From Azospirillaceae bacterium (GTDB lineage: Bacteria; Pseudomonadota; Alphaproteobacteria; Azospirillales; Azospirillaceae), in NCBI GenBank assembly GCA_031291675.1, contig JARLIO010000041.1, positions 62,001 to 126,000 on the forward strand: DNA of 64,000 nt, given 5' to 3'. The notes beneath the pieces were generated by a model. The model made no database searches and was not told the DNA's origin. It saw only the letters and a list, made by a program, of their open reading frames with translations. Each line of letters starts with the position of its first letter. Position 1 is the first letter of the stretch. A program made the position numbers and the translations under genes. Positions 26,706 through 63,853 of this stretch are shown here, in pieces.

Positions 26706-26751
26706 TTGAAAAATGCCGAATAAGCCTGTTTAATCCATAGAAATTATATGG
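26706..26751 (+). promoter_or_regulatory. Sigma-70-type promoter with CCATA-N7-TATGG operator, mar copy 1
   Basis: TTGAAA (26706-26711), a 17-base spacer and TTTAAT (26729-26734) form a good housekeeping promoter. Directly after the -10 box lies a palindrome with arms CCATA and TATGG separated by seven bases (26735-26751), covering the expected start of transcription. That position fits a repressor site best. The same element occurs at 30151-30167 with one arm mismatch and at 59544-59560 on the other strand. The first complete gene downstream is marD copy 1. Confidence 0.8.
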
Positions 26752-28502: not shown

Positions 28503-28504
28503 AC

Positions 28505-29992: not shown

Positions 29993-30264
29993 GAACGGGT
30001 GGCGTGGCCTTCTTGGTCAGGCCAGGTCACCTGTCCGATTCTGAGGACACGCTTTTATCACGAATTAACATAATAATACCGTTATTAAAGGCTTCAATAT
30101 CGCATATTATGCAGATTTTTCTTGAAAAATGCCGAGCAGAGCCGTTTAATCCATAGACATTGTAAGGTTATACCGCCCCAAAGGGTGGTCCCGTTCGCCG
30201 TCAGGAGGGGTCATGCCCGTCAAGGTCGCCGTAGCTAGCCAGGATGGAAGAACCGTCGATCAGC
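29993..30264 (+). repeat. Duplicated mar upstream block, copy 2
   Basis: Counterpart of 26593-26850. The hairpin here is eroded (GGTGGCGTGGCCT against AGGCCAGGTCACC, 11 of 13 pairs), and the arm TATGG has become TAAGG. The -35, -10, 17-base spacing and the start of the nifX-like gene are conserved. Here the nifX-like gene continues intact beyond CGATCAGC (30257-30264), where copy 1 jumps to marH sequence. Confidence 0.85.
30122..30167 (+). promoter_or_regulatory. Sigma-70-type promoter with operator, mar copy 2
   Basis: TTGAAA (30122-30127), 17-base spacer, TTTAAT (30145-30150), then CCATAGACATTGTAAGG (30151-30167), which matches the palindrome of copy 1 with one changed arm base. It should drive nifX-like, marB, marH, marD and marK. 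The changed arm could weaken binding of the regulator, so the two copies may respond differently; this is an inference. Confidence 0.78.
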
Positions 30265-30599: not shown

Positions 30600-30627
30600 C
30601 CAGCCTCGGGCAAAGGATGATCGACCG

Positions 30628-32525: not shown

Positions 32526-32657
32526 GGGCTGATCACGAAGACCGAGGGTGACCCTCGACGGCAGCCGACGCCGTTGGTGCGACCCGAAGTCCGCGATCAG
32601 CCCTCGAAACCGGTCCGCCACGGCCCGTTGAGGATGCCAACACGCCAGGAGTGCATC

Positions 32658-34184: not shown

Positions 34185-34197
34185 TCGGAGGAGCATC

Positions 34198-45818: not shown

Positions 45819-45826
45819 CTAGGCAA

Positions 45827-46372: not shown

Positions 46373-46561
46373 GCGGAGGTCCCTCTTCGGCCGCCTGGCG
46401 GCCCCGTCCCCGCGAGGCACATACGAAAAATATCACGGCTGCTCCGACCATGACGAGCGGTTTCGATGATCAACCGTTCGCGAGGCACAAAGGCGTCGGG
46501 GGCGGGGGCGTTCAAGGAACCAGTTTGCAGCCCTCTCGCCTCGCTTTGGAATTTTAATGAT

Positions 46562-46591
46562 TTTAATCGATCGAAATTATAGGTTATAACG
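46562..46591 (+). promoter_or_regulatory. Promoter with a diverged mar-type element before sfnB
   Basis: TTTAAT (46562-46567) is followed by CGATCGAAATTATAGG and then TTATAACG. With a one-base gap this aligns with the mar copy-1 sequence after its -10 box: shared are AATC, GAAATTATA, GGTTATA and CG. The palindromic arms are not perfect here. No good -35 box is present, so an activator may be needed. It lies about 80 bases before the first sfnB. Confidence 0.6.
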
Positions 46592-46671
46592 AGAGGCAAT
46601 CACAGAGTGCCAACGCGCCGTCACGACCAGGCTGCGGCGGCCCTCCCGAAACCACCGGTTATGGAGGCATC

Positions 46672-47916
46672 GTGTCAAAAATCATTTTTCACGCCGGCAG
46701 CGGCGTCGTCCCAGAATTGCCCGCCCGCAGCGCGCCAGCCCGGGTCATCACCTCCGACGCCGAGGCCATCGCCGTCGCCCATGAGGTCGCAGCCCAGATC
46801 GCCCCCGGCGCGTCAGACCGCGACCGCGACGCGGTCCTCGCCCTCGACGAAATCGCCCTGTTCTCGCAAAGCGGACTGTGGGCCATCACCGTGCCCAAGG
46901 ACTACGGCGGCGCCGGCGTTTCCGCCGTGACCCTGGCCGAAGTCACCGCAATCATCGCCGCCGCCGACGCCAGCATCGGGCAAATTCCGCAAAACCACTG
47001 GTACATCGTCGAAGCCCTGCGCCTCGCCGGGACCCCGGCCCAAAAAGCGTTCTTTTTCGGCAGGGTTCTGGAGGGCGACCGGATCGGCAATGCCTTCACC
47101 GAGATCGGGACCCGGACCCCCGTCGATTTCAAAACCACCATCACCCGGCAGGCGGATGGCACGCGCGTCATCGAAGGCCAGAAATTCTATTCGACCGGCG
47201 CCCTTTACGCCCACTGGATCGCGGTCGTCGCCAATGACGAAGACCGCCGCTCGACCATCACCTTCATCCCGCGCGGCACCAAAGGCCTTGAATTGGTTAA
47301 TGATTGGAGCAGCTTCGGCCAGCGCTCCACCGGCAGCGGCACCACGCGGTTTCACGCGGTCACGGTTCCGGAATTCAATGTCATCCCGCATCAGGTCGTG
47401 TTCGATCAACCGACACCGATGGGACCGATCGCGCAGATCATCCAGGCGGCCATCGACACCGGCATTGCCCGCGCCGCCCTGGCCGATACCATCGAATACA
47501 CCCGAAAATATGCCCGTCCGTGGCTTGAGACCAATTTCGAGCACGGTTACGAGGACCCTTACGTGATTGCCGCGGTCGGCGATCTGGCGTTGCGCGTCAC
47601 CGCGACCAACGCGGTGCTGGAGCGGGCCGGGCGATTTGTCGATATCGCGATCGCCGACCCCACCGACCAGACCGTTGCCGAGGCCTCGATTGCCGTCGCC
47701 GAGGCGAAAGTCTTGTCGACCGAAGCGTCGCTGCTGGTCGCCAGCAAACTGTTCGAGTTGACGGGTTCGCGGTCGACACTCAAGGAATTCAATTTTGACC
47801 GGCATTGGCGCAATGCGCGCACCCACACGCTCCATGACACGGTGCGCTACAAATACGTCAATGTTGGCAACTTTTTCTTGAACAACATCAGGCCTCCGCG
47901 TCACGGCGCCCTCTAA
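46672..47916 (+). CDS. sfnB: SfnB-family sulfur-acquisition oxidoreductase, first copy
   Basis: A 414-residue flavoprotein with the acyl-CoA dehydrogenase fold, SfnB/DszC branch, used with flavin monooxygenases to oxidise organosulfur compounds. Family marks are ITSDAEAIAVAHEVAAQIAP, QIPQNHWYIVEALRLAGT, DWSSFGQRSTGSGTTRFH and the C-terminal FNFDRHWRNARTHTLHD. The start is GTG 46672 with ATGGAGG upstream. The catalytic base of true acyl-CoA dehydrogenases is not expected in this branch. The second copy follows after 16 bases and looks like a tandem duplicate. Confidence 0.88.
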   Translation: MSKIIFHAGSGVVPELPARSAPARVITSDAEAIAVAHEVAAQIAPGASDRDRDAVLALDEIALFSQSGLWAITVPKDYGGAGVSAVTLAEVTAIIAAADASIGQIPQNHWYIVEALRLAGTPAQKAFFFGRVLEGDRIGNAFTEIGTRTPVDFKTTITRQADGTRVIEGQKFYSTGALYAHWIAVVANDEDRRSTITFIPRGTKGLELVNDWSSFGQRSTGSGTTRFHAVTVPEFNVIPHQVVFDQPTPMGPIAQIIQAAIDTGIARAALADTIEYTRKYARPWLETNFEHGYEDPYVIAAVGDLALRVTATNAVLERAGRFVDIAIADPTDQTVAEASIAVAEAKVLSTEASLLVASKLFELTGSRSTLKEFNFDRHWRNARTHTLHDTVRYKYVNVGNFFLNNIRPPRHGAL

Positions 47917-47932
47917 TCCGCAGGAGAGAACC

Positions 47933-49183
47933 ATGCCCCTCGATCTGACAACGGCTCCACGGGTCAACTCACCGGAGCCCTTTGCCCCCCGGCCCCGGCC
48001 GACGACACCGCCCCATCGCATCACCAGCGATGCCGAGGCGATCGCCATCGCCCATCGCCTGGCTGCCGAATTTTCCGTGAATGCCGCCTTGCGCGATCGC
48101 GAAGGCATCCTGCCGCTTGACGAACTGGACGCCTATTCGCAAAGCGGCCTGTGGGCCCTCAATGTGCCCAAGGCCTTCGGGGGACCGGCCGTGTCCTATG
48201 CCACCCTGGCCGAGGTGATCAAGATCATCGCCGCCGCCGATCCCAGCATTGCCCAGATCACGCAAAACCACCTCGCCATCATCGGCCAGATCGACCTGGA
48301 TGGCACTGAGGCCCAAAAGCGCACATTCTTCGGCTGGGTCCTGGACGGTCTTCGCTTCGGCAATGCTTTTTCCGAACGCAACAGCAAAACCGTGGCCGAC
48401 TTCGAAACCAGGATCACCTATGCCGATGACGAGGCCATCATCAACGGCACCAAATTCTACACGACCGGTGCTCTGCTTTCCCACATCGTGCCCATCGTTG
48501 CCGTGGATGACGAAGGTCATGGCTTTCTGGCTTTCAGCGAGCGCGATGCCCCGGGACTGACCGTGACCAATGATTGGTCAGGTTTCGGACAGCGCACCAC
48601 CGCGTCGGGCTCGGTGCGGATTGAGAATGTTCGCCTGCCGCGCGACCGCCTGCTGGCGGTGACGGCATTCGATCGTCCCACCGTTGCCGGGCCGGTCTCG
48701 CAGATCATCCAGGCCGCGATCGATCTCGGGATCGGCTACGGGGCGGTGGCCGATACCATCAGTTTCGTCAACACCCGATCACGACCTTGGCTCGACAGCG
48801 GCAAGGACCGCGCCGCCGAGGATCCCTTCACAATCCAGGCGATCGGGGACCTCGAAATCCGCCTGCACGCTGCCGATGCGCTGTTGGCACGGGCCGGGCG
48901 GCTGATCGACCAGGGCGTCACCACACCGACCGAAGAGGTGATCGCCGCAGCAACGATCGCCACCGCCGAGGCCAAGGTCCTGACCACCGAAGTCGCGATC
49001 CTCGCCACCAACAAGCTGTTTGAACTCGCGGGGACCCGCTCGATCCTGGCGGAACACAATCTCGACCGTCATTGGCGCAACGCTCGCGCCCATACCCTCC
49101 ATGATCCGGTCCGGTGGAAATATTTCCACATCGGCAACTACTACCTTAACCACACCAACCCGCCGCGGCATCCCTGGAACTAG
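47933..49183 (+). CDS. sfnB: SfnB-family sulfur-acquisition oxidoreductase, second copy
   Basis: A 416-residue paralogue of the preceding protein. It shares ITSDAEAIAIAHRLAAEFS, QITQNHLAIIGQIDLDGTEA, DWSGFGQRTTASGSVRI and LDRHWRNARAHTLHD. Two copies may form a heteromer or handle different substrates such as sulfones and sulfoxides. ATG 47933 follows CAGGAGAG. A terminator follows at 49201, separating it from the DmoA-like gene, which has its own promoter. Confidence 0.88.
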   Translation: MPLDLTTAPRVNSPEPFAPRPRPTTPPHRITSDAEAIAIAHRLAAEFSVNAALRDREGILPLDELDAYSQSGLWALNVPKAFGGPAVSYATLAEVIKIIAAADPSIAQITQNHLAIIGQIDLDGTEAQKRTFFGWVLDGLRFGNAFSERNSKTVADFETRITYADDEAIINGTKFYTTGALLSHIVPIVAVDDEGHGFLAFSERDAPGLTVTNDWSGFGQRTTASGSVRIENVRLPRDRLLAVTAFDRPTVAGPVSQIIQAAIDLGIGYGAVADTISFVNTRSRPWLDSGKDRAAEDPFTIQAIGDLEIRLHAADALLARAGRLIDQGVTTPTEEVIAAATIATAEAKVLTTEVAILATNKLFELAGTRSILAEHNLDRHWRNARAHTLHDPVRWKYFHIGNYYLNHTNPPRHPWN

Positions 49184-49200
49184 GCGTCGGACCGGGAGAC

Positions 49201-49233
49201 ACACGGCGGGGGAGGTCCCCGCCCTGTGTTTTT
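49201..49233 (+). terminator. Rho-independent terminator after the sfnB pair
   Basis: A GC-rich stem formed by GGCGGGG and CCCCGCC, extended by an ACAC/GTGT pair, ends in TTTTT at 49229-49233. It lies 18 bases after the second sfnB stop. Confidence 0.8.
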
Positions 49234-49288
49234 CGTGCACAATTGCTTCCGGAAGCCGATGGCTCCAGCGATCAATCAAAACAATCTT

Positions 49289-49306
49289 TATAATCGATCT
49301 ATATAC
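49289..49306 (+). promoter_or_regulatory. Possible promoter of the DmoA-like/Liv operon
   Basis: TATAAT (49289-49294) followed by CGATCTATATAC, about 135 bases before the DmoA-like ATG. AATC at this place recurs in the mar and sfnB promoters, and AATC-(G/T)-ATCTAT recurs at 19767 before the MetQ-like gene. No clear -35 box, so activator dependence is suspected. Confidence 0.45.
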
Positions 49307-49431
49307 TTGACTATGTGTCGCGGAGCCGCTTCAATCACTGCGGCAACATACCGCATCACCCGGGGGAACCAGACACCAGAAGCCCGACCCGCGTTCCCCA
49401 TTGCCACCGACATCGCCCAACGGAGCTCGCC

Positions 49432-50886
49432 ATGACGCGCACGATCCGCTTTAACGCCTTTGACATGAATTGTGTCGGCCACCAGTCCCCAGGCCTGTGG
49501 GCCCACCCGCGGGATCGCTCATGGCAGTACAAAGATCTCGAATACTGGACTGATCTCGCAAAGACCCTGGAGCGGGGTATTTTTGATGGCATCTTCATCG
49601 CCGATGTCATCGGATATTACGATGTATACAAAGGATCGAATTTTCACGCGATCCAACAGGCGGCACAGATTCCGGTCAATGATCCGCTCCAGCTTGCGGC
49701 ACCGATCGCCCAGGCAACCGAGCATCTGGGCATCGGGATCACCGCCTCGACCTCATTCGAGCACCCCTACACCTTCGCCCGCCGGCTTTCGACCGCCGAC
49801 CACCACACCAAGGGCCGGGTCGGCTGGAACATCGTGACGTCGTACCTGGAGAGCGGCGCCCGCAACATCGGCCAGGGCGGGTTGAAGCGCCACGACAACC
49901 GCTATGAAGTCGCGGCCGAATATGTCGAAGTCCTCTACAAGCTATTCGAAGGTAGCTGGGAAGCCGGTGCCGTGGTGCGCGATCGCGAAAAGCGTGTCTT
50001 CACGATCCCCGAGAAGGTCCATGAGATTGGACACAAAGGCAAATTCTTCGAGGTCCCCGGCTATCATCTGTGCGAGCCCTCGCCGCAGCGCACGCCGGTG
50101 CTCTACCAGGCCGGCGCGTCCGGTCCCGGCAAGGCCTTCGCAGCGCAGCACGCCGAGTGCGTTTTCGTCGCCGCACCGACCAAATCCATGCTCAAGGCCT
50201 ATGTCACCGACATTCGCCGTCAGGCCGCCGCCGCCGGCCGCGACGCCAGCAGGCTGCTGATCTATAACCTAACCACGGTCATCGTTGACGAAACCGATGA
50301 CAAGGCCCAGGCCAAATTCAAGGAATACCAGTCCTATACCTCGTATGACGGCTCGCTGGTATTCCTATCGGGCTGGAGCGGCATCGATTTCGGCCAATAT
50401 GCACCCACCGACCTGATCCGGAAGGTCGAAACCAACGCCATCGTTTCGGTTGTCGAGCATTTCGCCGGCGGCGACAAGAGCTGGACGATGGAGGAACTGG
50501 CCTTGTGGGGCGGCATCGGCGGCCTGGGTCCGGTCTTCGTCGGCTCCCCCTCGACGGTCGCCGATATCCTGGAAGGCTGGGTCGAGGACACCGGTGTCGA
50601 CGGTTTCAACCTGGCCTATGCCGTAACCCCCGAAAGCTTCGAGGACGTCACCAACCACCTGGTCCCGGAACTTCAAAAACGCGGCGTCTACCCAAAGGCC
50701 TACCAGCCTGGAACCTTGCGCGAAAAGCTGTTCGGCGCCGGTCCCTTGCTGCCGGAGAACCATCCCGCGGCCGGCTATCGTGACATCGAAGCCGTGAAGC
50801 GCCGTGATCGCGAACGGGAGCGCACCGCAGCCGAACCCGGTCAACCACGTCACGAAACCGCGAGCCTCGAAGCCGTGGCGGGATAA
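49432..50886 (+). CDS. DmoA/NtaA-family FMN-dependent monooxygenase
   Basis: A 484-residue luciferase-like monooxygenase of the branch that includes dimethyl sulfide monooxygenase DmoA, DszA and NtaA. Family marks are FNAFDMNCVGHQSPGLWAHP at the start, GIFDGIFIADVIGYYDVYKG, TKGRVGWNIVTSYLESGARN and PSPQRTPVLYQAGASGPGK. The length matches DmoA. It would use reduced FMN and O2 to cleave a C-S bond. ATG 49432 lies just after CGGAGCTCGCC. It is followed six bases later by livG, so this enzyme and the importer form one operon, suggesting the importer carries its substrate. The paralogue at 18367 is frameshifted. Confidence 0.88.
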   Translation: MTRTIRFNAFDMNCVGHQSPGLWAHPRDRSWQYKDLEYWTDLAKTLERGIFDGIFIADVIGYYDVYKGSNFHAIQQAAQIPVNDPLQLAAPIAQATEHLGIGITASTSFEHPYTFARRLSTADHHTKGRVGWNIVTSYLESGARNIGQGGLKRHDNRYEVAAEYVEVLYKLFEGSWEAGAVVRDREKRVFTIPEKVHEIGHKGKFFEVPGYHLCEPSPQRTPVLYQAGASGPGKAFAAQHAECVFVAAPTKSMLKAYVTDIRRQAAAAGRDASRLLIYNLTTVIVDETDDKAQAKFKEYQSYTSYDGSLVFLSGWSGIDFGQYAPTDLIRKVETNAIVSVVEHFAGGDKSWTMEELALWGGIGGLGPVFVGSPSTVADILEGWVEDTGVDGFNLAYAVTPESFEDVTNHLVPELQKRGVYPKAYQPGTLREKLFGAGPLLPENHPAAGYRDIEAVKRRDRERERTAAEPGQPRHETASLEAVAG

Positions 50887-50891
50887 CGGTC

Positions 50892-51662
50892 ATGGCCGAC
50901 GCTCTTCTCCGGCTTCACGACGTGTCGCTCGCCTTCAAGGGGATTACGGCCCTCAATCGTCTCAGCTTCGACGTTGAGCGCGGCGAGATCTGCGCCCTGA
51001 TCGGGCCGAACGGGGCCGGCAAGAGTTCCCTGCTCAACGTCATCAACGGCGTCTATCGCGCCAATACGGGTGATATCGTCTTCGATGGCGTCCGGTTCGA
51101 GAGGATCCATCCCTTAAAGGCAGCCGATCTCGGCATTGGCCGCACGTTCCAGCACAACGCTTTGTTCGGCCGGCTTACGGTGATCGAGAATGTGCTGGCC
51201 GGGCTTGCACGCCATGGACGGGCAAATTTCCTGGAAAACATCTTTCGGCTCGGCCGGGACCGCGCAGAACGGCGATCCTTTACCACCCGGGCGCACCGTA
51301 TCATCGCCTTCCTTGAGCTCGATCCGCACATCGAAACGGTCGTCTCGACTCTGCCCTATGGCCTGCAAAAGCGCGTGGATCTGGCCCGTGCCCTGGTCGC
51401 GGACCCCAAACTCCTGCTTCTGGACGAACCCATGGCCGGGATGAACCAGGATGAAAAGGCGGAGATGAGCCATTTCGTCAGTGATGTGAACGAAAAGCTC
51501 GGCACCACCGTCGTCCTGATCGAACACGATGTCGGCATCGTCATGGATCTGGCCGATCACGTCGTGGTGCTTGATTACGGCCGCAAAGTCGGAGATGGCA
51601 CGCCCGACGAAGTCCGCAACAACCCCGACGTCATCGCCGCTTACCTCGGCACGGTTCACTGA
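50892..51662 (+). CDS. Liv-type ABC importer ATPase (LivG-like)
   Basis: A 256-residue ATPase of the branched-chain amino-acid type. Walker A is GPNGAGKSSLLNVINGVY, the family insertion GIGRTFQHNALFGRLTV is present, the signature region reads LPYGLQKRVDLARAL, and Walker B LLLLDEPMAGMN. The signature deviates from LSGGQ (LPYGLQ), as is usual in LivG. It lies in a complete five-gene importer set behind a DmoA-like gene. Confidence 0.9.
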   Translation: MADALLRLHDVSLAFKGITALNRLSFDVERGEICALIGPNGAGKSSLLNVINGVYRANTGDIVFDGVRFERIHPLKAADLGIGRTFQHNALFGRLTVIENVLAGLARHGRANFLENIFRLGRDRAERRSFTTRAHRIIAFLELDPHIETVVSTLPYGLQKRVDLARALVADPKLLLLDEPMAGMNQDEKAEMSHFVSDVNEKLGTTVVLIEHDVGIVMDLADHVVVLDYGRKVGDGTPDEVRNNPDVIAAYLGTVH

Positions 51663-51670
51663 GGAAAATC

Positions 51671-52552
51671 ATGAACTTCTTTCTGGAAACGTTGGTAAGC
51701 GGACTGAGTGCGGGCGTGATGTATTCGCTTGTCGCGATCGGATTTGTCCTGATTTACAAGGCTTCCGGCGTCTTCAACTTCGCGCAGGGGTCGATGCTGC
51801 TCTTCGCATCATTGACCTTCGTCACCCTGGTCGAAAAGGGCGCTCCGTTTGGGGTGGCCCTGGGGACAACGGCTCTGGTGATGATCCTGGGAGCCATCCT
51901 GATTGAACGACTGGTGTTGCGACCACTCGTCAATCGCGATGCGTTGACATTGTTCATGGCGACGCTCGGTCTCAGCTTTGTCATCGAGGGCCTGGCCCAA
52001 CTGTTGATGGGATCGGACGTCCATATGCTGGATCTCGGCATCGACGATCTTCCGGTTTCGGTCGGTGGCCTGATGATCAGTCAATTCGATCTCTTTGCCT
52101 CGGGCGCGGCGTTGGCCCTGGTCGCGGTCTTGTCGATCGTCTTCAACAAGACACGCATGGGGATCTCGCTGCGAGCCGTCGCCGATGACACGCTGGCGGC
52201 ACAATCGATCGGAATCCGGCTGCCGGCGATCTGGCGGATCGTCTGGAGCGTCGCCGGGATCGTGGCGCTGGCCGCGGGTCTGATCTGGGGCGCGCGCCAG
52301 GGCGTCCAATATTCGCTGTCACTGGTGACGCTGAAGGCATTGCCGGTTCTAATTATCGGCGGATTTTCCTCGATTGCCGGTGCGATCGTCGGCGGCCTGC
52401 TTGTCGGGGCAACAGAGTCGCTTGCCGATATTTATATCGGCCCCCTGGTTCAGGGCAGCGTCTCAACCTGGTTTGCCTACATCCTCGCCGTCGTTTTCCT
52501 TCTGGTGCGCCCCGCCGGCCTGTTTGGCGACCGCGCGATTGAAAGGGTCTGA
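51671..52552 (+). CDS. Liv-type ABC importer permease (LivH-like)
   Basis: A 293-residue inner-membrane permease with the LivH start (LVSGLSAGVMYSLVAIGFVL) and the NFAQGSMLLFASLTFV segment. Eight hydrophobic stretches are visible. The cytoplasmic loop RMGISLRAVADDTLAAQSIG and the late LIIGGFSSIAGAIVGGLLVG are typical. ATG 51671 comes eight bases after the livG stop with GAGGAAAATC upstream. Confidence 0.9.
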   Translation: MNFFLETLVSGLSAGVMYSLVAIGFVLIYKASGVFNFAQGSMLLFASLTFVTLVEKGAPFGVALGTTALVMILGAILIERLVLRPLVNRDALTLFMATLGLSFVIEGLAQLLMGSDVHMLDLGIDDLPVSVGGLMISQFDLFASGAALALVAVLSIVFNKTRMGISLRAVADDTLAAQSIGIRLPAIWRIVWSVAGIVALAAGLIWGARQGVQYSLSLVTLKALPVLIIGGFSSIAGAIVGGLLVGATESLADIYIGPLVQGSVSTWFAYILAVVFLLVRPAGLFGDRAIERV

Positions 52553-52556
52553 GGCC

Positions 52557-53642
52557 ATGACCGTCGCTTCCCAGATCGCCGACACCCCCGTCCGGGGGGT
52601 ACAGCGCCGAGCCGGCCTGATCGGGCGGCCGCTGGTCCTGATCACGATCGGCCTGGTCGTCGCTTTCGTCGCGATCCCTTTGGTCGCAACTGATTACTGG
52701 TTGAGCTCAATCATCATCCCCACCATCGTGATGGGCCTGGCGGGGCTCGGCCTCAATTTACTGATGGGCTATGCCGGGCTGGTCTCGCTCGGCGCCGCAG
52801 CCTTCATGTCGATCGGCGCCTTCGCCACCTACAACCTGTTGCTGCGGCTGCCGGTGCTGCCCTTGCCGGTCGTCCTGGTGCTGGCGGGCCTGATCGCAGC
52901 GGCGGCCGGCATTCTGTTCGGCCTGCCGAGCCTGCGGATCAAGGGCTTCTATCTCGGAGCCTCGACGCTGGGGGCACAATTCTTCTTCGAATGGCTGTTC
53001 ACCAATTTCAAATGGTTCTCCAACGGCAGCCAATCCTTGACGATCTCGGCACCGCGGCTGGCATTTCTCGGCTGGGATCTGTCCGCCGCGACCGGCCGCT
53101 ATCTCCTGGTGGCCGCCGTCACCGCACTCTTGATCCTGTTGGCATATGCGATTGTCCATAGCCGCGTCGGCCGCGAATGGATGGCGATCCGCGACCAGGA
53201 CACCGCCGCCGCTGTCATCGGGATTCGCATCGGCCGTCGCAAATTGCTGGCCTACGCCATCAGCTCGTTCTTTTGCGGCATCGCCGGGGCGCTCTGGGCC
53301 TTTGGCTATCTCGGGACGGCCGATGCCCACGCCTTCGATCTCGACAAGTCATTCCAGGTTCTCTTCATTGTTCTGATCGGCGGCACGGCAACCCTATTCG
53401 GTAGTTTCTTCGGCGCCGCTTTCATCGTCCTGACGCCCATCCTGCTCGATCGCATCGTGCTGGCAACCAGCCTGACCGCCAGTGCTGACCAGGGTGCGCT
53501 CGCGAACCTGCAACGGATCATCTTCGGCGTCATCATCATTCTCCTTCTGATCAAAGAGCCGGATGGTCTGAGCAGCCTCCTACGCCGTGGCCTCAGCGGT
53601 GTCCGGCGGCGTGACACCGCATCGCGCGCACCCCTCGGCTGA
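52557..53642 (+). CDS. Liv-type ABC importer permease (LivM-like)
   Basis: A 361-residue permease partner of the LivH-like protein. The LivM motif is GLGLNLLMGYAGLVSLGAAA near residue 60, followed by LPSLRIKGFYLGASTLGAQF. The later loop GREWMAIRDQDTAAAVIGIR is conserved. ATG 52557 follows GAGG. The 138 bases to the next gene hold no other gene. Confidence 0.9.
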   Translation: MTVASQIADTPVRGVQRRAGLIGRPLVLITIGLVVAFVAIPLVATDYWLSSIIIPTIVMGLAGLGLNLLMGYAGLVSLGAAAFMSIGAFATYNLLLRLPVLPLPVVLVLAGLIAAAAGILFGLPSLRIKGFYLGASTLGAQFFFEWLFTNFKWFSNGSQSLTISAPRLAFLGWDLSAATGRYLLVAAVTALLILLAYAIVHSRVGREWMAIRDQDTAAAVIGIRIGRRKLLAYAISSFFCGIAGALWAFGYLGTADAHAFDLDKSFQVLFIVLIGGTATLFGSFFGAAFIVLTPILLDRIVLATSLTASADQGALANLQRIIFGVIIILLLIKEPDGLSSLLRRGLSGVRRRDTASRAPLG

Positions 53643-53780
53643 TCCTTTCGATCCATTACCCCCCGCTTGTCTGGTGCCGTGGCGCAATTCGCAGCGCATG
53701 CGTTTCGGTGACCGCCATTGGCCCGCGAGGACGCCGGACCCGCCACAAGATCTGCAAATCTCAACGAAAGGACGTCATTG

Positions 53781-55124
53781 ATGCCGTCGCTATCCGTACC
53801 AACGATCATCCTGGCCGGGGCCCTGGGCCTGGTTGCCCTGACCGGCAGCCAACCGGCTTCTGCGCAGGAGCACAAGGGCGAGCAGCTCTATCCGCTGTTC
53901 ACCTATCGCACCGGGCCCTATGCGCCATCCTTCATCCCCTTCGGTGCCGGCAACCGCGATTATCTTCGTTACATCAACGAGGTCGAGGGCGGCGTTGACG
54001 GCGTCAAGATCTTTATCCAGGAATGCGAGACCGGCTACACCATCGAACGTGGCATCGAATGCTATGAACGTTACAAGAACGGCTATGACGGCGCCCTGAC
54101 GGCGGCAATCTACCCGCATTCAAGCGGTCTTGATGTCGCGTTGACCGACAAGGCGCGCATCGACAAGATTCCGATTGTCAGCCCCGGCGGCGGTCAGAAC
54201 ATCGCGACCGACGGCCGCGTCTTTCCCTACCAGTACCCGTTGATCTTCGATTATTGGAGCGAAGCCCAGATCGTCGTCGATTACATCGCCCATCAAGTCG
54301 GCGGCACCGACAAACTCAAGGGCGTCAAAATCGCCACCCTCTATCATGACTCGGGTTACGGCCGCGACACGATCGAGCCCCTCGACATCCTGTCGAAGAA
54401 ATTCGGGTTCGAGGATATCCAGATCCCGGTGCCGCATCCCGGCGAACAGCAGCAGGCGCAATGGCAACAAATCCGCCAGGCCGGCGCCGATTGGGTGTTC
54501 CTGCGGGGCTGGGGCGTCATGACGCCGGTCGCAATCAAGACCGCGGCCCGTGTCGGTTTTCCCGTGAACCACATCATCGGCGATATCTGGAGCGGCTCCG
54601 AAGACGATGCACGGCCGGCCGGCGGCGTCGCCAAGGGTTATCTCGCCGTATCGGTATTCCCGCCCGGAACAGATTACGATATTCTCAAGAAACTCAAGGA
54701 AACAATCATCGATACGGGAAAGAGCGACCTGAAGGACGATACAAAATTCGGTACCGTCTATTATAATTATGGGGTCATCGAGGCGATCACCTTTGTCGAA
54801 GCTTTGAGGACGGGTCACCGAAAATTCGGTAACCATCCGTTGACCGCGGCGGAAGGCCAATGGGCTCTGGAAAACCTCGCCATCGACGATCAGCGCATCG
54901 CAGCACTCGGGGCCAAGGGGTTGATCAGCCCGCTGCAAACATCGATTGCAAACCACAAGGGCGAAACCATCGCAGCCAAAATCATACAATGGGACGGTAC
55001 CCGGTGGGACACCCTGACCGATTGGATCAAGGCCGACACAACCCTGTTTGCTGACGTCATTCGGGCCAAAGCCGCCGCCTACGCCCAGGAAAAGGGCCTC
55101 GTGCTGCGCACCGCCAGCAACTGA
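53781..55124 (+). CDS. Liv-type solute-binding protein
   Basis: A 447-residue periplasmic binding protein of the LivK/amide-urea branch. The signal peptide is TIILAGALGLVALTGSQPAS, with cleavage near ASAQ. The mature part has FGAGNRDYLRYINEVEGGV, FIQECETGYTIERGIECYER and KIATLYHDSGYGRDTIEPLD. ATG 53781 follows GAAAGGA. Position behind the DmoA-like gene suggests a sulfone, sulfonate or related ligand, not leucine; this is inferred. Confidence 0.88.
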   Translation: MPSLSVPTIILAGALGLVALTGSQPASAQEHKGEQLYPLFTYRTGPYAPSFIPFGAGNRDYLRYINEVEGGVDGVKIFIQECETGYTIERGIECYERYKNGYDGALTAAIYPHSSGLDVALTDKARIDKIPIVSPGGGQNIATDGRVFPYQYPLIFDYWSEAQIVVDYIAHQVGGTDKLKGVKIATLYHDSGYGRDTIEPLDILSKKFGFEDIQIPVPHPGEQQQAQWQQIRQAGADWVFLRGWGVMTPVAIKTAARVGFPVNHIIGDIWSGSEDDARPAGGVAKGYLAVSVFPPGTDYDILKKLKETIIDTGKSDLKDDTKFGTVYYNYGVIEAITFVEALRTGHRKFGNHPLTAAEGQWALENLAIDDQRIAALGAKGLISPLQTSIANHKGETIAAKIIQWDGTRWDTLTDWIKADTTLFADVIRAKAAAYAQEKGLVLRTASN

Positions 55125-55138
55125 GACCCGGTCCGCCG

Positions 55139-55162
55139 GAGGGCCGGCACGGACCGGCCCTC
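55139..55162. repeat. Perfect 9-bp hairpin between livK-like and livF-like genes
   Basis: GAGGGCCGG, six-base CACGGA loop, CCGGCCCTC. No U-run follows, so it more likely protects the 3' end of the binding-protein mRNA than terminates transcription. The last ATPase gene starts 34 bases later. Confidence 0.6.
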
Positions 55163-55195
55163 AAGACCAGGTCTTCACCACCAAGAGGAATCGTC

Positions 55196-55996
55196 ATGAG
55201 CGGACCGATGGAACCCGGCCTCGATGTCGTCGACATCCAGGCCTATTATGGCCAGGCGATCCTGGCAATTCGGGGGGTCTCGCTTCGCGTTGACCATGGC
55301 TCGATTGTTGCCCTGTTGGGCGCCAATGGCGCCGGCAAGACGACAACCCTCAAGGCGATTTCCAATCTTCTGGGTTCCGAACGCGGCGCGCTGAGCCGAG
55401 GCACCATCACCTGGGGTGGCGACGCGGTCGACCGCCTCTCCCCCTCGGAACTGGTCGCCAAAGGCGTCGTTCAAGTCCTCGAAGGCCGGCATTGTTTTCC
55501 GCAACTGACCATCGAGGAGAACATCCTTTCCGGTGGCTTCCTGCGACGCCCGAGCCGCCGGCAGATGGCGGCGGACCTGGAACAGATCTACGCCTGGTTT
55601 CCCCGGCTGAAGGAAAAGCGCAAGACCAAGGCCGGCCTGACCTCCGGTGGTGAACAACAAATGACAGCGATCGGCCGGGCGCTGATGACCAGGCCAAAGC
55701 TGATGTTGCTCGATGAGCCGTCGATGGGGCTGGCGCCGATCATCGTCCAGGAAATCTTTGAAATCATCCGGATGCTCAACCAGCGCAGCGGAGTCAGCTT
55801 CCTTATCGCAGAACAAAACGCCACCCTCGCGCTGCGCTACGCCGATCACGGCTATGTGCTCGAAACCGGCAGGGTTGTCGCCTCGGGCACAGCCGCCGAA
55901 CTGGCCGCGCGCGACGACGTCAAGGAATTCTATCTTGGCGGTTCCCGTGATCAGGCCAACGACCGGCGGGGTCGGCCAACACGGGCAACCGCGTGA
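55196..55996 (+). CDS. Liv-type ABC importer ATPase (LivF-like)
   Basis: A 266-residue ATPase that completes the Liv importer. Walker A is GANGAGKTTTLKAISNL, the signature region TSGGEQQMTAIGRALM, and Walker B LMLLDEPSMGLAP. The family phrase GVVQVLEGRHCFPQLTIEEN is present. ATG 55196 follows AAGAGGAATCGTC. It is the last gene of the operon. The next genes are on the opposite strand, and 55997-56112 holds nothing clear. Confidence 0.9.
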   Translation: MSGPMEPGLDVVDIQAYYGQAILAIRGVSLRVDHGSIVALLGANGAGKTTTLKAISNLLGSERGALSRGTITWGGDAVDRLSPSELVAKGVVQVLEGRHCFPQLTIEENILSGGFLRRPSRRQMAADLEQIYAWFPRLKEKRKTKAGLTSGGEQQMTAIGRALMTRPKLMLLDEPSMGLAPIIVQEIFEIIRMLNQRSGVSFLIAEQNATLALRYADHGYVLETGRVVASGTAAELAARDDVKEFYLGGSRDQANDRRGRPTRATA

Positions 55997-56112: not shown

Positions 56113-56814
56113 TCAGCCGATCCACAGGCCTTCGACCCGGACCTGCAATCCTTCATCGGTGCGATTGAGATAGTTGACCAGGCCGCTATGACGCCATTGC
56201 AGCATGCAACGCCGCGGCTGGAAGAAATAGCGCATGCCGATGCGGATGTCGGCGCGCGTCTGGGTGATCAGCCCCTCATAGCCCTCGGCGATATAATAGC
56301 CGATATCCTTGAAGCCCTTCTCCCGGGCGGCGAGCGGCCCGGTGACGCACCAGACGATCACGCCCGTCCGGCGATCGACCTCGGTGACGACGCCACAATG
56401 GGTGATCGGGCAGCCGCATGACATGCCGAGCGGCCGACCAATCAGCAGATCATCGACCTGAACGTCCATTTCGCGGGTCAGGATCGGATTGTGCGGCAGG
56501 ATGATCTCGCGCGGCCCCGGCTCCTCCGGGAAATGTTCCAGGTAGAAGTCGAAATCACGCCCCAGGGAGTCGCGCCAAGCCTCATCGGCCACCGCCGCGG
56601 CGGCTGGCTGGACCGTGGGCTCCCGGGGAATGGCGGCGGGAACCGGGCTCGGCGCAGCCGGGGTGACGTCGAACCGGCTCTCGGACAGATGGATACAGCG
56701 TTCGATCAGGTCGGGGCGGTTTTCAAGCGCGACCGCCAGGGCGTCGCAGGTCCGATAGCCGCAGACACCGCAATTCTGGCCCGGAAGATCGCGGTGTGAG
56801 AGGGTGGTCGTCAT
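56113..56814 (-). CDS. Cysteine-rich Fe-S protein, candidate MAR accessory factor
   Basis: A 233-residue soluble protein. An N-terminal Fe-S domain has cysteines at about 15, 18, 23 and 40 (GQNCGVCGYRTC, later ERCIHL), the spacing of the small four-cysteine FeS domain found in RnfB and in corrinoid/CODH-related proteins. A Pro/Ala linker spans 50-75. The C-terminal part has three more cysteines in GMSCGCPITHCG, then VWCVTGPLAAREKGFKDIGY. Role unknown. It is last in an operon with an ATPase, a GTPase and a NifS-like desulfurase, whose promoter carries the mar operator. Inference: electron delivery or cluster assembly for MAR. Confidence 0.75.
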   Translation of the reverse strand: MTTTLSHRDLPGQNCGVCGYRTCDALAVALENRPDLIERCIHLSESRFDVTPAAPSPVPAAIPREPTVQPAAAAVADEAWRDSLGRDFDFYLEHFPEEPGPREIILPHNPILTREMDVQVDDLLIGRPLGMSCGCPITHCGVVTEVDRRTGVIVWCVTGPLAAREKGFKDIGYYIAEGYEGLITQTRADIRIGMRYFFQPRRCMLQWRHSGLVNYLNRTDEGLQVRVEGLWIG

Positions 56815-56838
56815 TGTCGCTTCCTTATCCTTGCCGCA

Positions 56839-58011
56839 TCAGCGACGGGCTCTGCGCGGACTGGTGATCCCGCGCAGGCTGGCGACGATCGGCGGCAACA
56901 CCTCGATGAACCGGGCGATTTCTTCGCCGGTGGTGAAACGCCCGAGGGTGATGCGCAGGGCACCCCGGGCCCGAAACGGATCAAAGCCCATCGCCTGCAG
57001 AACGTAGGAGGGTTCGGCGGCATGGGCGGCGCTGCACGCGCTGCCGGTCGATACGGCAAAACCGGCCTCGTCGAGGGCAAGCAACAGCTTGATCGCCTCC
57101 CCCTCCTGCCCGGCGAAGCCAACGCTGAGATGCCCCGGCAAGCGCCGGAAGCGGTGACCGATCAGGTAGGCTCCGGGACAGGCGGCGGTGATACCGTCGA
57201 GCAGGGTATCGCGCAGTCCGACCAGCCGGCTCGCCTCCTCGGCCCGCTCGGCCGCGGCGAGCACGGTGGCGCGGCCCAGCCCAACGATGCCGGCGACATT
57301 CTCCGTGGCCGAGCGCAAGCCGCGTTCCTGACCACCGCCATGGATCAGCGGCGCCACGGCGACGCCATCGCGGACAAACAACGCCCCGACGCCCTTGGGG
57401 CCGTGCAGCTTGTGCGCCGACAGCGACAGCAGGTCGACCGGCAGCACCGCGAGATCGAGGGGCAGTTTTCCCACGGCCTGGACCGCGTCGGTATGGAACA
57501 GCGCCCCGGCGGCGCGGGTGACCGCCGCCAACTCGGCAATCGGTTGCACGGTGCCAACGACATTGTTGGCGGCCATAATCGAGACCAGCCGGGTGGTTGG
57601 ACGCAGGGATCGCCGCAGGGCCTCGGGCGCCACCAGACCATCGCCGTCGACCGGCAACCGGGTGACCTCGGTGCCATGGCGTTCCAGCCATTGGCAGGTC
57701 TCAAGAATGGCGGGATGTTCGAAGGCGCTGGTGATCAGGTGGTTGAGCCCGGCCGGCGCCGTCGCCATCGCGCCGATCAGCGCCAGATTGTCGGCTTCGG
57801 TGCCACTGGCGGTGAAGATGATCTCCGCAGGCCGGGCGTTGAGCAGCGCCGCGACCTGGGCGCGGGCCGCGTCAACCGCCTGCCGGGCCCGGCGCCCGGC
57901 CTGATGGAGGCTGGAGGGATTGGCAAAGACGTCGCTCTGGAACGGCGTCATGGCTTCGACCACCCTCGGGTCGACCGGCGTCGTGGCAGAGTGGTCGAAA
58001 TAGATCGCCAC
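56839..58011 (-). CDS. NifS/IscS-type cysteine desulfurase
   Basis: A 390-residue PLP enzyme. The start IYFDHSATTPVDPRVVEAM, PLP lysine in SLSAHKLHGPKGVGALF and active-site cysteine in STGSACSAAHAAEPS mark the NifS/IscS group, distinct from the SufS-type cargo enzyme at 4999. It supplies sulfur for Fe-S clusters. No iscU or iscR is adjacent; instead it sits with a GTPase, ATPase and Fe-S protein. This suggests dedicated cluster supply to the MAR system, as NifS serves nitrogenase. The next gene begins 24 bases downstream. Confidence 0.9.
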   Translation of the reverse strand: MAIYFDHSATTPVDPRVVEAMTPFQSDVFANPSSLHQAGRRARQAVDAARAQVAALLNARPAEIIFTASGTEADNLALIGAMATAPAGLNHLITSAFEHPAILETCQWLERHGTEVTRLPVDGDGLVAPEALRRSLRPTTRLVSIMAANNVVGTVQPIAELAAVTRAAGALFHTDAVQAVGKLPLDLAVLPVDLLSLSAHKLHGPKGVGALFVRDGVAVAPLIHGGGQERGLRSATENVAGIVGLGRATVLAAAERAEEASRLVGLRDTLLDGITAACPGAYLIGHRFRRLPGHLSVGFAGQEGEAIKLLLALDEAGFAVSTGSACSAAHAAEPSYVLQAMGFDPFRARGALRITLGRFTTGEEIARFIEVLPPIVASLRGITSPRRARR

Positions 58012-58014
58012 GAT

Positions 58015-58716
58015 CTATTCGCCTCGATAGAAGGTCTGGTTGTCGAGGGCGCGAACCACGCCGAAATGCGATTGCCAGCCGATTTCCTTCTTGCCGACAC
58101 AGATGGTGCAGGTGCCGACCGGCGGGTTGCCGCGCAACAGCAGCTTGTCGCCAACATCGGCGGTCGCGAGGATATGGTCGACCAGCGGATCGATGCCGAT
58201 CCCGTAAAGGGCGTTAACCTCGCGAACACGAACCGTCGGCGCGGCATCCTGGATCCGGGCACGGAACACTTCGCGCTCGGCCTGGGACACACGGTCGATC
58301 TTGGTCACGACGGCGATATCGGCCAGCGACAGCATCGGCCCGATCTTGCGGGGCAAATTCATGCCGCTGGTCGCCTCGACGACGACGATGCCAAGGCCGC
58401 CATCGACATAGGGCGAACAACGCAGGCACAAGCCTGCGGTTTCGACCAGCAGGACGTCGGCACCGCCGCGTTCCGCCCATTGCAGGGCCTCGCCCAGGAC
58501 CATGACATTGCAGTGATCCGGGCACAGTTCGCCCGAATAGACCTTGCGCGTCGGGATCGAGAATTCGCGGGCGAACAATTCGTCCTCTTCGGCGAACTGG
58601 ACATCGATCTTGAGGAAAGCGACCGCCAGCCCGCGCTTCTGGAGCCGTGGGACCACTCCACGCAGGACCGCGGTCTTGCCGGTGGTGGCGGTGCCGGCGC
58701 AGATCACCAGTTTCAT
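58015..58716 (-). CDS. HypB/CobW-like GTPase with Cys motifs
   Basis: A 233-residue P-loop protein resembling metallochaperone GTPases of the G3E class. The P-loop is CAGTATTGKTAVLRG, a Walker B-like stretch is DVLLVETAGLC, and the guanine-specificity motif reads VVTKIDRV. Cysteine pairs occur in GELCPDHC, GLCLRCSP and GTCTICVG, possible metal or cluster sites. Family members (HypB, UreG, CooC-like) insert or activate metal cofactors. The start overlaps the preceding ATPase stop by four bases. Inferred role: energy-driven maturation of MAR or its reductase. The exact family is uncertain. Confidence 0.75.
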   Translation of the reverse strand: MKLVICAGTATTGKTAVLRGVVPRLQKRGLAVAFLKIDVQFAEEDELFAREFSIPTRKVYSGELCPDHCNVMVLGEALQWAERGGADVLLVETAGLCLRCSPYVDGGLGIVVVEATSGMNLPRKIGPMLSLADIAVVTKIDRVSQAEREVFRARIQDAAPTVRVREVNALYGIGIDPLVDHILATADVGDKLLLRGNPPVGTCTICVGKKEIGWQSHFGVVRALDNQTFYRGE

Positions 58717-59510
58717 GTCCGTTTCTCCACGTCAACGCTGGCGACATCGGAGCGCGTGACCCGGTGGCCGAGGCGGATCAGGTCGCGCAGATGCGACAGC
58801 ATGTCGTCGAACTGGCACACGATCGGGGCCAAGTCCCGCTCGCCGGCATCGGTATGAAGCACCTGGTCGATCCGGCCATCCTTGAGGACGATGCGATAAT
58901 CGGACAGCAGGGCAATACGCGGGTCGTGGGTCACGAAGATGAAGATCTTGCGATAACCCCGCAGCAGTTCGAGCGCCCGCGACCGGTTGATGCCGGCATT
59001 CTCGACCTCATCGAGCAGCACGATCGGGGTGTCGCAGATGATCGTGGCATCGGCAATCAGCAGCGCGCGGGTCTGGCCACCCGATAATTCGGTCATCTGG
59101 CTCGACAGCGAAATCGGCTCCCCGGTCAACTCATTGGCGAAAGTCAGCGTGCGCTCGACCGCCCCTTCCGCAGCCACCGGGGTATGACGGATGCGGGCGT
59201 GAATGTGCAGGAATTCCGCGACGGGCAGATCCGAGAGAAAGGTGGTGTGCTGGGTGATCAGCGCGATCGGATTGCAGGCGGGATCGTCGCGATATTCCGG
59301 CGGCGGCGTCCGTCCGTTGATCAGGATGGTGCGGCCAGTCGGCGTGTTGCCGTTGGCGAACAGCTCGATGTCGTTGATCAGGGTCGTCTTGCCCGACCCG
59401 GTGCGACCGACGACGCTGACGACATCACCCATCCGCAGATCCAGGCGATCGATCCCGTCAGGCGTGCCATCACGGCCATGACCGGCGAGAATGGTGATTT
59501 CTTCGATCAA
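58713..59510 (-). CDS. Stand-alone ABC-type ATPase, candidate MAR accessory factor
   Basis: A soluble ABC-type ATPase of about 265 residues. Walker A is GRTGSGKTTLINDIE, the signature LSGGQTRALLIADA, Walker B PIVLLDEVENAG and the H-loop IFVTHD. No membrane partner is encoded nearby. Stand-alone ABC ATPases are known in activation of other metalloenzymes, such as the A2 component for methyl-coenzyme M reductase, so a role in enzyme activation is reasonable. TTG 59510 with GGAG six bases upstream is preferred. GTG 59537 gives nine more residues but would leave almost no leader after the predicted transcription start. Confidence 0.75.
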   Translation of the reverse strand: MIEEITILAGHGRDGTPDGIDRLDLRMGDVVSVVGRTGSGKTTLINDIELFANGNTPTGRTILINGRTPPPEYRDDPACNPIALITQHTTFLSDLPVAEFLHIHARIRHTPVAAEGAVERTLTFANELTGEPISLSSQMTELSGGQTRALLIADATIICDTPIVLLDEVENAGINRSRALELLRGYRKIFIFVTHDPRIALLSDYRIVLKDGRIDQVLHTDAGERDLAPIVCQFDDMLSHLRDLIRLGHRVTRSDVASVDVEKRT

Positions 59511-59543
59511 GGCCGACTCCGAACGGTGCAGGGCCACGCTAGT

Positions 59544-59566
59544 CCATACAATTTCTATGGATTATA
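59544..59566 (-). promoter_or_regulatory. Promoter with mar-type operator for the ATPase-GTPase-NifS-FeS operon
   Basis: Read on the minus strand, a perfect -10 box TATAAT (59566-59561) is followed at once by CCATAGAAATTGTATGG (59560-59544). Over 20 bases this differs from the mar copy-1 operator at one position only. The CCATA-N7-TATGG palindrome is perfect. The best -35 at 17-base distance is poor (TCGTCG). The match in sequence and in position relative to -10 strongly suggests the same regulator controls both operons. Confidence 0.8.
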
Positions 59567-62269: not shown

Positions 62270-63070
62270 TCACGCCCGATCCGTCTCTCTGCGAGCGACA
62301 ATCTCCTGACGCAGGATCCGCACAATATCTTGCTTGAGCCGACTGAATGCAGGATCCGCAATCAGCGCCTCATAACACCGTGGTCGCGGAAACGGGATCG
62401 GAATATCGAGCGTGATCCGCCCGGGCCGGCGACTCATCACGGCGACGCGATCCGCCAGAAAAAGCGCCTCCTCGATGTCGTGTGTCACAAACAGCACCGT
62501 CGAAACCGCTTGGCCGCGGGCGGCCAGCAGGGTTTCCTGCATCTCAAGCCGGGTCTGCGCATCCAGGGCGCCGAACGGCTCGTCCATCAGGAGTATGCGC
62601 GGGTTTGAGATCCAGGCCCGCGCGATGGCGACGCGCTGGCGCATTCCTCCTGAAAGTTCATAGGGTGCGTGGTTCTCGAAGCCACCCAGCCCCATTTTCT
62701 CGATGAGTTCCAACGCTTGCGCACGATAGGTGGACGGCGCGACACCGGATAAGCGGGGCGCAAAGGTGACGTTGTCGATCACCGACAACCAGGGAAACAG
62801 AGAGGCATCCTGGAACACAACGCCCCGGTCTGGTCCCGGCCGCCCAACCGGCTCTCCCGCAATCAGGATACGGCCCTCGGTTGGCCCCTCGAAGCCCGCC
62901 AGCATATCCAGAATTGTCGACTTGCCGCATCCGCTCGGACCCAGCAGGCAAAGGAACTCCCCCTCGCCAATATTGAGCGAGACATCCCGAATTGCCCAGG
63001 TTTCCTGGCGGGTGCGCTGGGCGCGAAAGCATTTACTGACACTCTGGAGTTCAATCAGCGGCGCGACCAT
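62270..63070 (-). CDS. Second sulfonate-type ABC importer ATPase
   Basis: A 266-residue ATPase of the SsuB/TauB family. Walker A is GPSGCGKSTILDMLAGFEG, the signature LSGGMRQRVAIARA, Walker B ILLMDEPFGALDAQTR, and the H-loop TVLFVTHDIEEALFLADRV. ATG 63070 lies three bases after the permease stop. It pairs with the permease and partial binding protein upstream. Confidence 0.9.
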   Translation of the reverse strand: MVAPLIELQSVSKCFRAQRTRQETWAIRDVSLNIGEGEFLCLLGPSGCGKSTILDMLAGFEGPTEGRILIAGEPVGRPGPDRGVVFQDASLFPWLSVIDNVTFAPRLSGVAPSTYRAQALELIEKMGLGGFENHAPYELSGGMRQRVAIARAWISNPRILLMDEPFGALDAQTRLEMQETLLAARGQAVSTVLFVTHDIEEALFLADRVAVMSRRPGRITLDIPIPFPRPRCYEALIADPAFSRLKQDIVRILRQEIVARRETDRA

Positions 63071-63073
63071 CGA

Positions 63074-63853
63074 TCAACTCCGCCCCGCCCACGGGGTTAC
63101 CCACCGCTGCAGCCCGACAATTGCCAGATCAAGAACATAGCCGGTCAGCCCGAGCAACACGATTCCCAGCATCACAATATCGGTGCGCAGATACGCCGAC
63201 GCGTTGACCGCCATCCAACCCAGTCCCGCGTCAGCTGCGATCATCTCGGCAGCGATCAAGGTTGTCCAGCCGATCCCCAACGAAAGCCGCACGGCAACGA
63301 ACAGTTCGGGAGCCATTTGAGGCAGCATCACATGGCGAAACAGCGCAAATCCATGGGCGCCGAGCACTTTGCCCGCGCGGATCTGCTGGCGCCGCACATT
63401 CGCAACGGCAGCCGCCGCGCCGACGACAATACTCAATGAGGCGGACAAGAAAATCAGAAACACTTTCGAGAACTCACCAATTCCGAACCACAGAATGACC
63501 AGCGGGATCAGCGCGAGCTTCGGCAGGGGCCGCAGGAACTGGACGAACGGATCGATCAGGCCGGCGAAGATCGGCGAAATCCCGATCATGACGCCGAGGG
63601 GGATGCCGACGATGACGGCAGCGACGAACGCAACGAGCGCCCGCCCAAGGCTGAGACCGACATGCACCCACAAAGGTGAGCCTCTGTAGCCATGGCGCAA
63701 GAGATCGACCGCTGTGGCCAGGACCTCGGTCGGCGGCGGCAGGAACAAGGGATCGACAAGTCCATAACGTGCCGCTGACTCCCATGCCACGGTCACACTC
63801 GTGACGGAAACCAGCCCCAAGACAAGCCTGCGGACGCCTTCGCCCTCGTTCAA
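63074..63853 (-). CDS. Second sulfonate-type ABC importer permease
   Basis: A 259-residue permease of the SsuC/TauC family with six hydrophobic segments. Features are DPLFLPPPTEVLATAVDLL, GIPLGVMIGISPIFAGLIDP, FLRPLPKLALIPLVILWFG and the EAA loop KVLGAHGFALFRHVMLPQ. The start is taken as TTG 63853, whose bases overlap the TGA of the upstream binding-protein gene, implying coupled translation; a later start cannot be excluded. Confidence 0.88.
   Translation of the reverse strand: MNEGEGVRRLVLGLVSVTSVTVAWESAARYGLVDPLFLPPPTEVLATAVDLLRHGYRGSPLWVHVGLSLGRALVAFVAAVIVGIPLGVMIGISPIFAGLIDPFVQFLRPLPKLALIPLVILWFGIGEFSKVFLIFLSASLSIVVGAAAAVANVRRQQIRAGKVLGAHGFALFRHVMLPQMAPELFVAVRLSLGIGWTTLIAAEMIAADAGLGWMAVNASAYLRTDIVMLGIVLLGLTGYVLDLAIVGLQRWVTPWAGRS

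Follow-up and report, generated by a model that had tools for sequence, protein, structure and literature searches.

In a 64-kb stretch of a contig from an Azospirillaceae bacterium (the whole analysed stretch is called the window here), four genes on the minus strand at 56113-59537 encode a stand-alone ABC-type ATPase, a GTPase, a NifS-like cysteine desulfurase and an iron-sulfur (Fe-S) protein. From the comparison of sequences and gene neighbourhoods, we consider it an even call that these genes belong to a module for sulfur limitation or assimilation that is widespread and seems to have spread by horizontal exchange, and a link between the module and sulfur assimilation as such is very probable. 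Judging by shared operator-like sites, the host places the module in a sulfur-scavenging regulon with two methylthio-alkane reductase (MAR) systems and an SfnB/DmoA organosulfur operon, a regulon that would respond to sulfur limitation. A preliminary description of this DNA had proposed that the four genes form a maturation system specific to MAR, and this proposal fails against the genome comparisons described below.

Distribution and gene neighbourhood of the module

The module loci that we compared are the best 80 of more than 560 stretches with relatives of the GTPase; they thus represent the nearest relatives rather than a balanced set, and the genomes that carry them are mostly incomplete bins. 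The 80 loci span Chloroflexota, Planctomycetota, Omnitrophota, Acidobacteriota, Bacteroidota, Pseudomonadota, Spirochaetota, Myxococcota and others, together with two archaeal bins, and in nearly all of them the ATPase, GTPase and Fe-S genes stand in the same order. Since the order and orientation are the same in dozens of genomes, the gene set is not a product of chance. The NifS gene lies between the GTPase and Fe-S genes in 37 of 64 loci and is absent there in 27, and its presence needs at least ten changes (gains or losses) on the tree; for these reasons the predicted core of the module is the ABC ATPase, the GTPase and the Fe-S protein, with NifS as an optional accessory.

Neighbouring genes were searched with E. 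coli and window proteins in flanks of up to 10 kb. At least one sulfur-assimilation gene was found within 10 kb in 26 of the 80 loci, versus one locus with any of ten control genes, whose abundance differs from that of the sulfur genes. Cysteine or cystathionine synthase genes occur in 14 loci, MetY-type genes in 10 and MetX in 3, while CysD, CysN and CysC were found in four loci each (five loci in all) and CysP/U/W in three. The module stands inside a sulfate transport cluster in one locus (L038, CysP-[ABC-GTPase-FeS]-CysU-CysW-CysA), where CysUWA has retained a separate transporter ATPase; other arrangements are [module]-CysP-CysU (L055) and [module]-CysC-CysD-CysN (L075), CysD/CysN adjoin the module in L076, L077 and L089, and MetX-MetW with MetY-type genes lie upstream in L021, L022 and L025. 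Neither CysH nor CysI was found beside the module in any of the 80 loci, and CysJ gave one weak match in one locus. An Rrf2 regulator is encoded directly upstream in many loci and, outside the Bacteroidetes, mostly lacks the IscR cysteines. Two tandem Rrf2 genes, the second shorter and diverged, lie upstream of the ABC gene in L013, L016 and L017. In Rhodoblastus (L015, 7848-9210) the module has a divergent sigma-54 activator upstream in place of Rrf2, along with a TGGCCCGCTCCTTGCA element that looks like a sigma-54 promoter, an arrangement that recalls control by SfnR. Sulfur genes and Rrf2/Crp regulators recur near the module from locus to locus, and no metalloenzyme gene does so. Because sulfur-assimilation genes neighbour the module in unrelated microbes, it probably helps to obtain sulfur and not to build MAR.

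The window module and that of Rhodoblastus sphagnicola form a pair on the tree with a support of 99, nested in a branch that holds Chloroflexota, Planctomycetota and Omnitrophota among others. The nesting of this pair among these and other phyla suggests that the module has been exchanged horizontally, though a tree alone is no proof of it. The Fe-S protein was found in one of 289 genomes of the host's class, namely the host, and the module in one of 197 genomes of a class-level Bacteroidia sample. A plasmid search with the Fe-S protein gave no match.

The four genes and their products

All four open reading frames were found where the preliminary description had placed them, and its account of four coupled genes is borne out by their coordinates, spacing, Pfam families and canonical motifs (Table 1). 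The ATPase stop codon and the GTPase start codon overlap in ATGA (58713-58716), and gaps of 3 bp and 24 bp separate the GTPase gene from NifS and NifS from the Fe-S gene, respectively. The start codon of the ABC gene is most likely the TTG and not the upstream GTG, because homologues open with M-I-x-x-I-T-I, GGAG lies just 5' of the TTG, and the operator would leave the GTG no ribosome-binding site.

Table 1. Module genes and operator-like sites in the window
Feature	Position	Strand	Basis and remarks
Stand-alone ABC-type ATPase	58713..59510	-	PF00005 ABC_tran, 53 bits; likely start TTG 59510; readable from GTG 59537
HypB/UreG/CobW-class GTPase with three conserved Cys motifs	58015..58716	-	PF02492 cobW/HypB/UreG, 44 bits
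NifS/IscS-like cysteine desulfurase, accessory	56839..58011	-	PF00266 class-V aminotransferase, 253 bits
Fe-S protein, N-terminal [4Fe-4S] domain and C-terminal beta-rich domain (predicted)	56113..56814	-	PF04060 FeS, 40 bits
Operator-like site TATAATCCATAGAAATTGTATGG before the module	59544..59566	-	Overlaps a TATAAT -10-like hexamer; 40.7 bits versus <=14.9 in five shuffled windows
Operator-like site TTTAATCCATAGAAATTATATGG before marD1K1	26729..26751	+	Motif comparison
Operator-like site TTTAATCCATAGACATTGTAAGG before the nifX-like/marB/marH/marD2K2 unit	30145..30167	+	Motif comparison
Fourth site TTTAATCGATCGAAATTATAGGT before the SfnB/DmoA-like operon	46562..46584	+	26.9 bits with the matrix from the other three sites; shuffles <=14.9

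The characteristic motifs are conserved. In alignments of 41-80 homologues, the Walker A, LSGGQ, Walker B DE and H-loop (H204) motifs of the ABC protein are invariant or nearly so, as are K201 and C326 of NifS; among 80 GTPase sequences the same is true of the G motifs and of C65, H68, C97, C100, C203 and C206, which belong to the three motifs C65-P-D-H68-C69, C97xxC100 and C203xxC206. No module protein reaches an NCBIfam equivalog cut-off: the GTPase scores 42.3 bits with the HypB equivalog (cut-off 121.2) and is far below the UreG cut-off as well, and the desulfurase scores 472 bits with TIGR03402 NifS (cut-off 530.75). The PDB relatives of the GTPase are UreG and HypB, with E values of at least 3e-5. 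The operon encodes no membrane permease for the ABC ATPase and no NifU/IscU scaffold, and the four proteins contain neither siroheme-protein domains (PF01077 NIR_SIR, PF03460) nor SufB/SufD domains.

The last gene of the operon does encode an Fe-S protein, as first described; it has nine cysteines (15, 18, 23, 40, 133, 135, 140, 156 and 203) where seven had been counted, and seven of the nine are conserved across 90% or more of the family. Its PF04060 match is limited to residues 10-41. AcsC (the corrinoid/iron-sulfur protein large subunit) and RnfB share this N-terminal 4-Cys Fe-S domain, but the likeness extends over only ~48 residues. Residues 80-233 are predicted with high confidence to form a beta-rich domain (AlphaFold model with a mean pLDDT of 86, above 90 over most of residues 81-232), for which no Pfam family was matched, and a PDB structure search with the model returned no fold match at E<=0.001. 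Among 66 sequences, C15, C18, C23 and C40 are invariant in the N-terminal part, and R127, C135, H139, R195, C203, R208, H209 and R226 in the C-terminal domain; the latter Arg/His/Cys set suggests a bound cluster or an anionic substrate.

No description of the module was found in the family libraries or in the open-access papers searched, which leave subscription journals and preprints mostly outside. The module thus appears new in the sense that no family or system in the searched libraries matches it, which is not proof of a function. It is a conserved set of three proteins, two different nucleotide hydrolases and an Fe-S protein with an unmatched domain, and it recurs in bacteria and some archaea beside genes for sulfate uptake, sulfate activation and the synthesis of cysteine and methionine.

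Operator sites and the MAR locus

An operator-like site of ~23 bp lies 5' of both mar units, of the SfnB-type sulfone operon and of the module. The sequence TWTAATCCATAGAMATTRTAWGG is common to the sites at mar unit 1, mar unit 2 and the module, and a matrix built from these three was compared with five shuffled windows as a control, in which the maximum was 14.9 bits. When as many as three mismatches are allowed, the window has two occurrences of the 24-bp module site, versus none in 100 shuffles. The motif overlaps a TATAAT/TTTAAT hexamer, and control at the promoter by a putative operator-binding regulator is suggested. The genes after the 46562 site encode two SfnB-family proteins (above cut-off) and then an NtaA/DmoA monooxygenase. 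Because the operator also precedes this organosulfur operon, what it marks is a predicted local regulon for organosulfur scavenging rather than for MAR assembly. The sharing of an operator by the module and the mar promoters, which had been noted before, is therefore real, and it extends to the SfnB operon. The organosulfur genes form an island (44607-55996 and 62270-63853) that encodes SsuD (above cut-off), the two SfnB proteins and the NtaA/DmoA monooxygenase, together with branched-chain-type ABC genes and an ABC ATPase/permease pair.

The window has two distinct MarDK pairs, at 26973-29899 and 32574-35577, each with its own operator site, and their MarD proteins are ~53% identical. MarD1 (26973-28502) scores 988 bits against the solved MarD and MarD2 (32574-34184) 597 bits, versus ~126-136 bits for the best NifD. 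A NifX-like protein (30213-30599) and MarB, a NifB-like radical SAM protein (within 30508-31602), are encoded before marH, so the MAR locus has its own NifB. The earlier argument that the locus lacks equivalents of NifEN, NifU and NifQ, and that other assembly factors are thus to be expected, has to be corrected accordingly, as a NifB-like and a NifX-like protein are encoded at the locus itself. From ~26798, before marD1, runs a sequence that nearly repeats the opening of the nifX-like gene (30213) and looks like a decayed duplicate of it. Two further host contigs (C47 and C99) carry eight more nitrogenase-type component 1 genes, and the host thus has nitrogenase systems besides MAR.

That the module matures or reactivates MAR, as the preliminary description had it, would fit the operator common to the module and both mar units, and would fit its closest relative, that of Rhodoblastus sphagnicola, whose genome also encodes two MarD proteins (84 and 54% identity). 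Against this, none of the 80 module loci has a MarH, MarD or MarK gene within its flanks (up to 10 kb on each side), and 47 of 49 module genomes have no MarD-like protein (43% identity or more), so that the four-gene set and marDK co-occur only in Rhodoblastus sphagnicola and one Bryobacterales bin. Within the window the module and the mar genes are ~20 kb apart, and such proximity is no proof of a role in maturation; in Rhodoblastus, neither the module nor the mar loci that were searched have the operator. Moreover, MAR from R. rubrum was made in R. capsulatus with marBHDK only, and both P- and [Fe8S9C]-clusters were obtained (PMC12552129), although R. capsulatus may or may not carry the module itself. 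Judged by the co-occurrence criterion that the preliminary description itself had set, the lack of linkage in 80 loci and co-occurrence in two of 49 genomes lead us to reject MAR maturation as the main role, and we regard any function of this kind as very unlikely. The reverse comparison, for MarD without the module, has no power because the host is the sole carrier: MarD at E<=1e-100 was found in none of 288 other genomes of the class and none of 81 other genomes of the order. Type 1 mlp gene clusters, which PMC10418091 reports close to MarHDK, were considered as well and rejected as the module, because the text of that paper names no GTPase or NifS part.

Proposed role and alternatives

In the sulfur-assimilation reading that we prefer, scarcity of preferred sulfur would lead to release (or activation) of the operator and expression of the module. 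The cysteine desulfurase would supply sulfur where needed, and the Cys-rich HypB-like GTPase and the soluble ABC ATPase would assemble the Fe-S protein, load it or supply it with energy. With its C-terminal domain this protein may then convert sulfite or a related oxidised inorganic sulfur intermediate, or pass on reduced sulfur, and so would feed CysK/MetY. We infer the regulation by sulfur limitation, the loading and energising roles, and the nature of the substrate. Whether the ATPase, the GTPase and NifS all serve the Fe-S protein is in our estimate evenly balanced, and sulfite-type reduction as the chemistry is doubtful. If the module does reduce or deliver sulfur, a pathway regarded as complete would gain a step or a helper, and the supply of sulfide in microbes that have sulfate activation but no known sulfite reductase could be accounted for.

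Several observations weigh against this reading. No recognised sulfur gene was found in the available sequence of 54 of the 80 loci, partly since contigs are short. The sulfate-assimilation set of the host is complete, with CysDNC, CysH-CysPUWA and a DUF2849-CysI-DUF934 sulfite reductase (SiR) operon (DUF2849 assigned by eye), and the module is therefore not the sole host route to sulfide. The operator was not seen before the host CysH, CysDNC or SiR genes: ~260 kb of the other host contigs, including the CysDNC, CysH-CysPUWA, SiR and nitrogenase regions, contain no comparable site (best 17.2 bits), and Rhodoblastus has none at its module or mar loci either (best 12.0 bits). Finally, a distantly related GTPase-ATPase pair in Fusobacterium vincentii stands beside apparent metal transporter genes, with no sulfur genes, Fe-S protein or NifS there.

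With the ATPase and the GTPase to power or mature it, the Fe-S protein might itself reduce sulfite, or adenylylsulfate (APS) or phosphoadenylylsulfate (PAPS), to sulfide in microbes without CysIJ/Sir. Many uncultured anaerobes without known sulfite reductases would then use the module to make sulfide from sulfite or activated sulfate without siroheme, by a route not described before in which the ABC ATPase and the GTPase charge a new catalytic Fe-S domain; we judge both the reaction and this wider proposal unlikely. Among the 49 genomes that carry the module, 33 lack PF01077 proteins, 42 encode either ATP sulfurylase or a PF01507 protein (CysD/CysH), and at least 13 have CysDN or Sat with CysH and SiR undetected. 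Genes for uptake, activation and incorporation flank the module, those for the reductases CysH and CysI never do and CysJ does once weakly, and an oxyanion would be a fitting substrate for the invariant Arg/His/Cys residues of the Fe-S protein. The module could thus occupy the same place in the pathway as CysIJ/Sir, between sulfate activation and cysteine synthase, but has no PF01077 or PF03460 domain, and the host possesses CysH, CysDNC and an SiR of its own. In a control of 148 genomes from one Bacteroidetes order (Bacteroidales), PF01507 was found in 116, PF01077 in 11 and the module in 8; the 8 and the 11 do not overlap, with ~0.6 expected by chance, and SiR is normally missing in this order also without the module. 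Most genomes of the order have CysD/CysH-type proteins yet no siroheme sulfite/nitrite reductase domain. In addition, most module genomes are incomplete bins, and CysDN can serve sulfation alone. Because the Bacteroidales control and the host SiR operon weaken the reductase function, we keep it as a rival only; the open-access literature, within the coverage given above, yielded no relevant alternative assimilatory sulfite reductase.

Assembly or repair of Fe-S clusters under sulfur shortage, in the manner of SUF (SufBCDS), is rather unlikely in our view. NifS would be the sulfur donor, the ABC ATPase would resemble SufC, and the GTPase and the Fe-S protein would carry clusters to many targets. 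The soluble ABC-type ATPase with a cysteine desulfurase is indeed a feature of SUF, NifS is present in 37 of 64 loci, the GTPase is Cys-rich, and an Rrf2 regulator is encoded nearby. However, the operon has neither SufB/SufD nor a NifU/IscU partner, the desulfurase is of the NifS and not the SufS type and is dispensable, being absent from 27 of 64 operons, the upstream Rrf2 lacks the IscR cysteines in most loci outside the Bacteroidetes, and the neighbours serve sulfate uptake, activation and incorporation. Still less probable is the delivery of a metal or cofactor (nickel, molybdenum or similar) to some other enzyme, with an indirect link to sulfur. The GTPase does belong to the HypB/UreG/MobB class, and the module resembles the maturation GTPases HypB, UreG and CobW (PF02492) in its P-loop GTPase, its conserved Cys/His motifs and its coupling to an ATPase and a metalloprotein; it differs in scoring below the HypB/UreG cut-offs, in its three own Cys motifs and in having no Ni enzyme genes nearby, and sulfur genes and Rrf2/Crp regulators recur around it instead of a metalloenzyme. 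The Fusobacterium relative among apparent metal transporter genes speaks for metal delivery. In F. vincentii (L010, 10823-13807), a DUF1858 and SBP_bac_6 (solute-binding) protein, a partner that the window module does not have, is followed by the GTPase and the ABC ATPase, which are encoded by adjacent genes as in the window and are 37% and 41% identical to their window counterparts, respectively. The F. vincentii L010 record is 2.1 Mb long and is labelled a plasmid.

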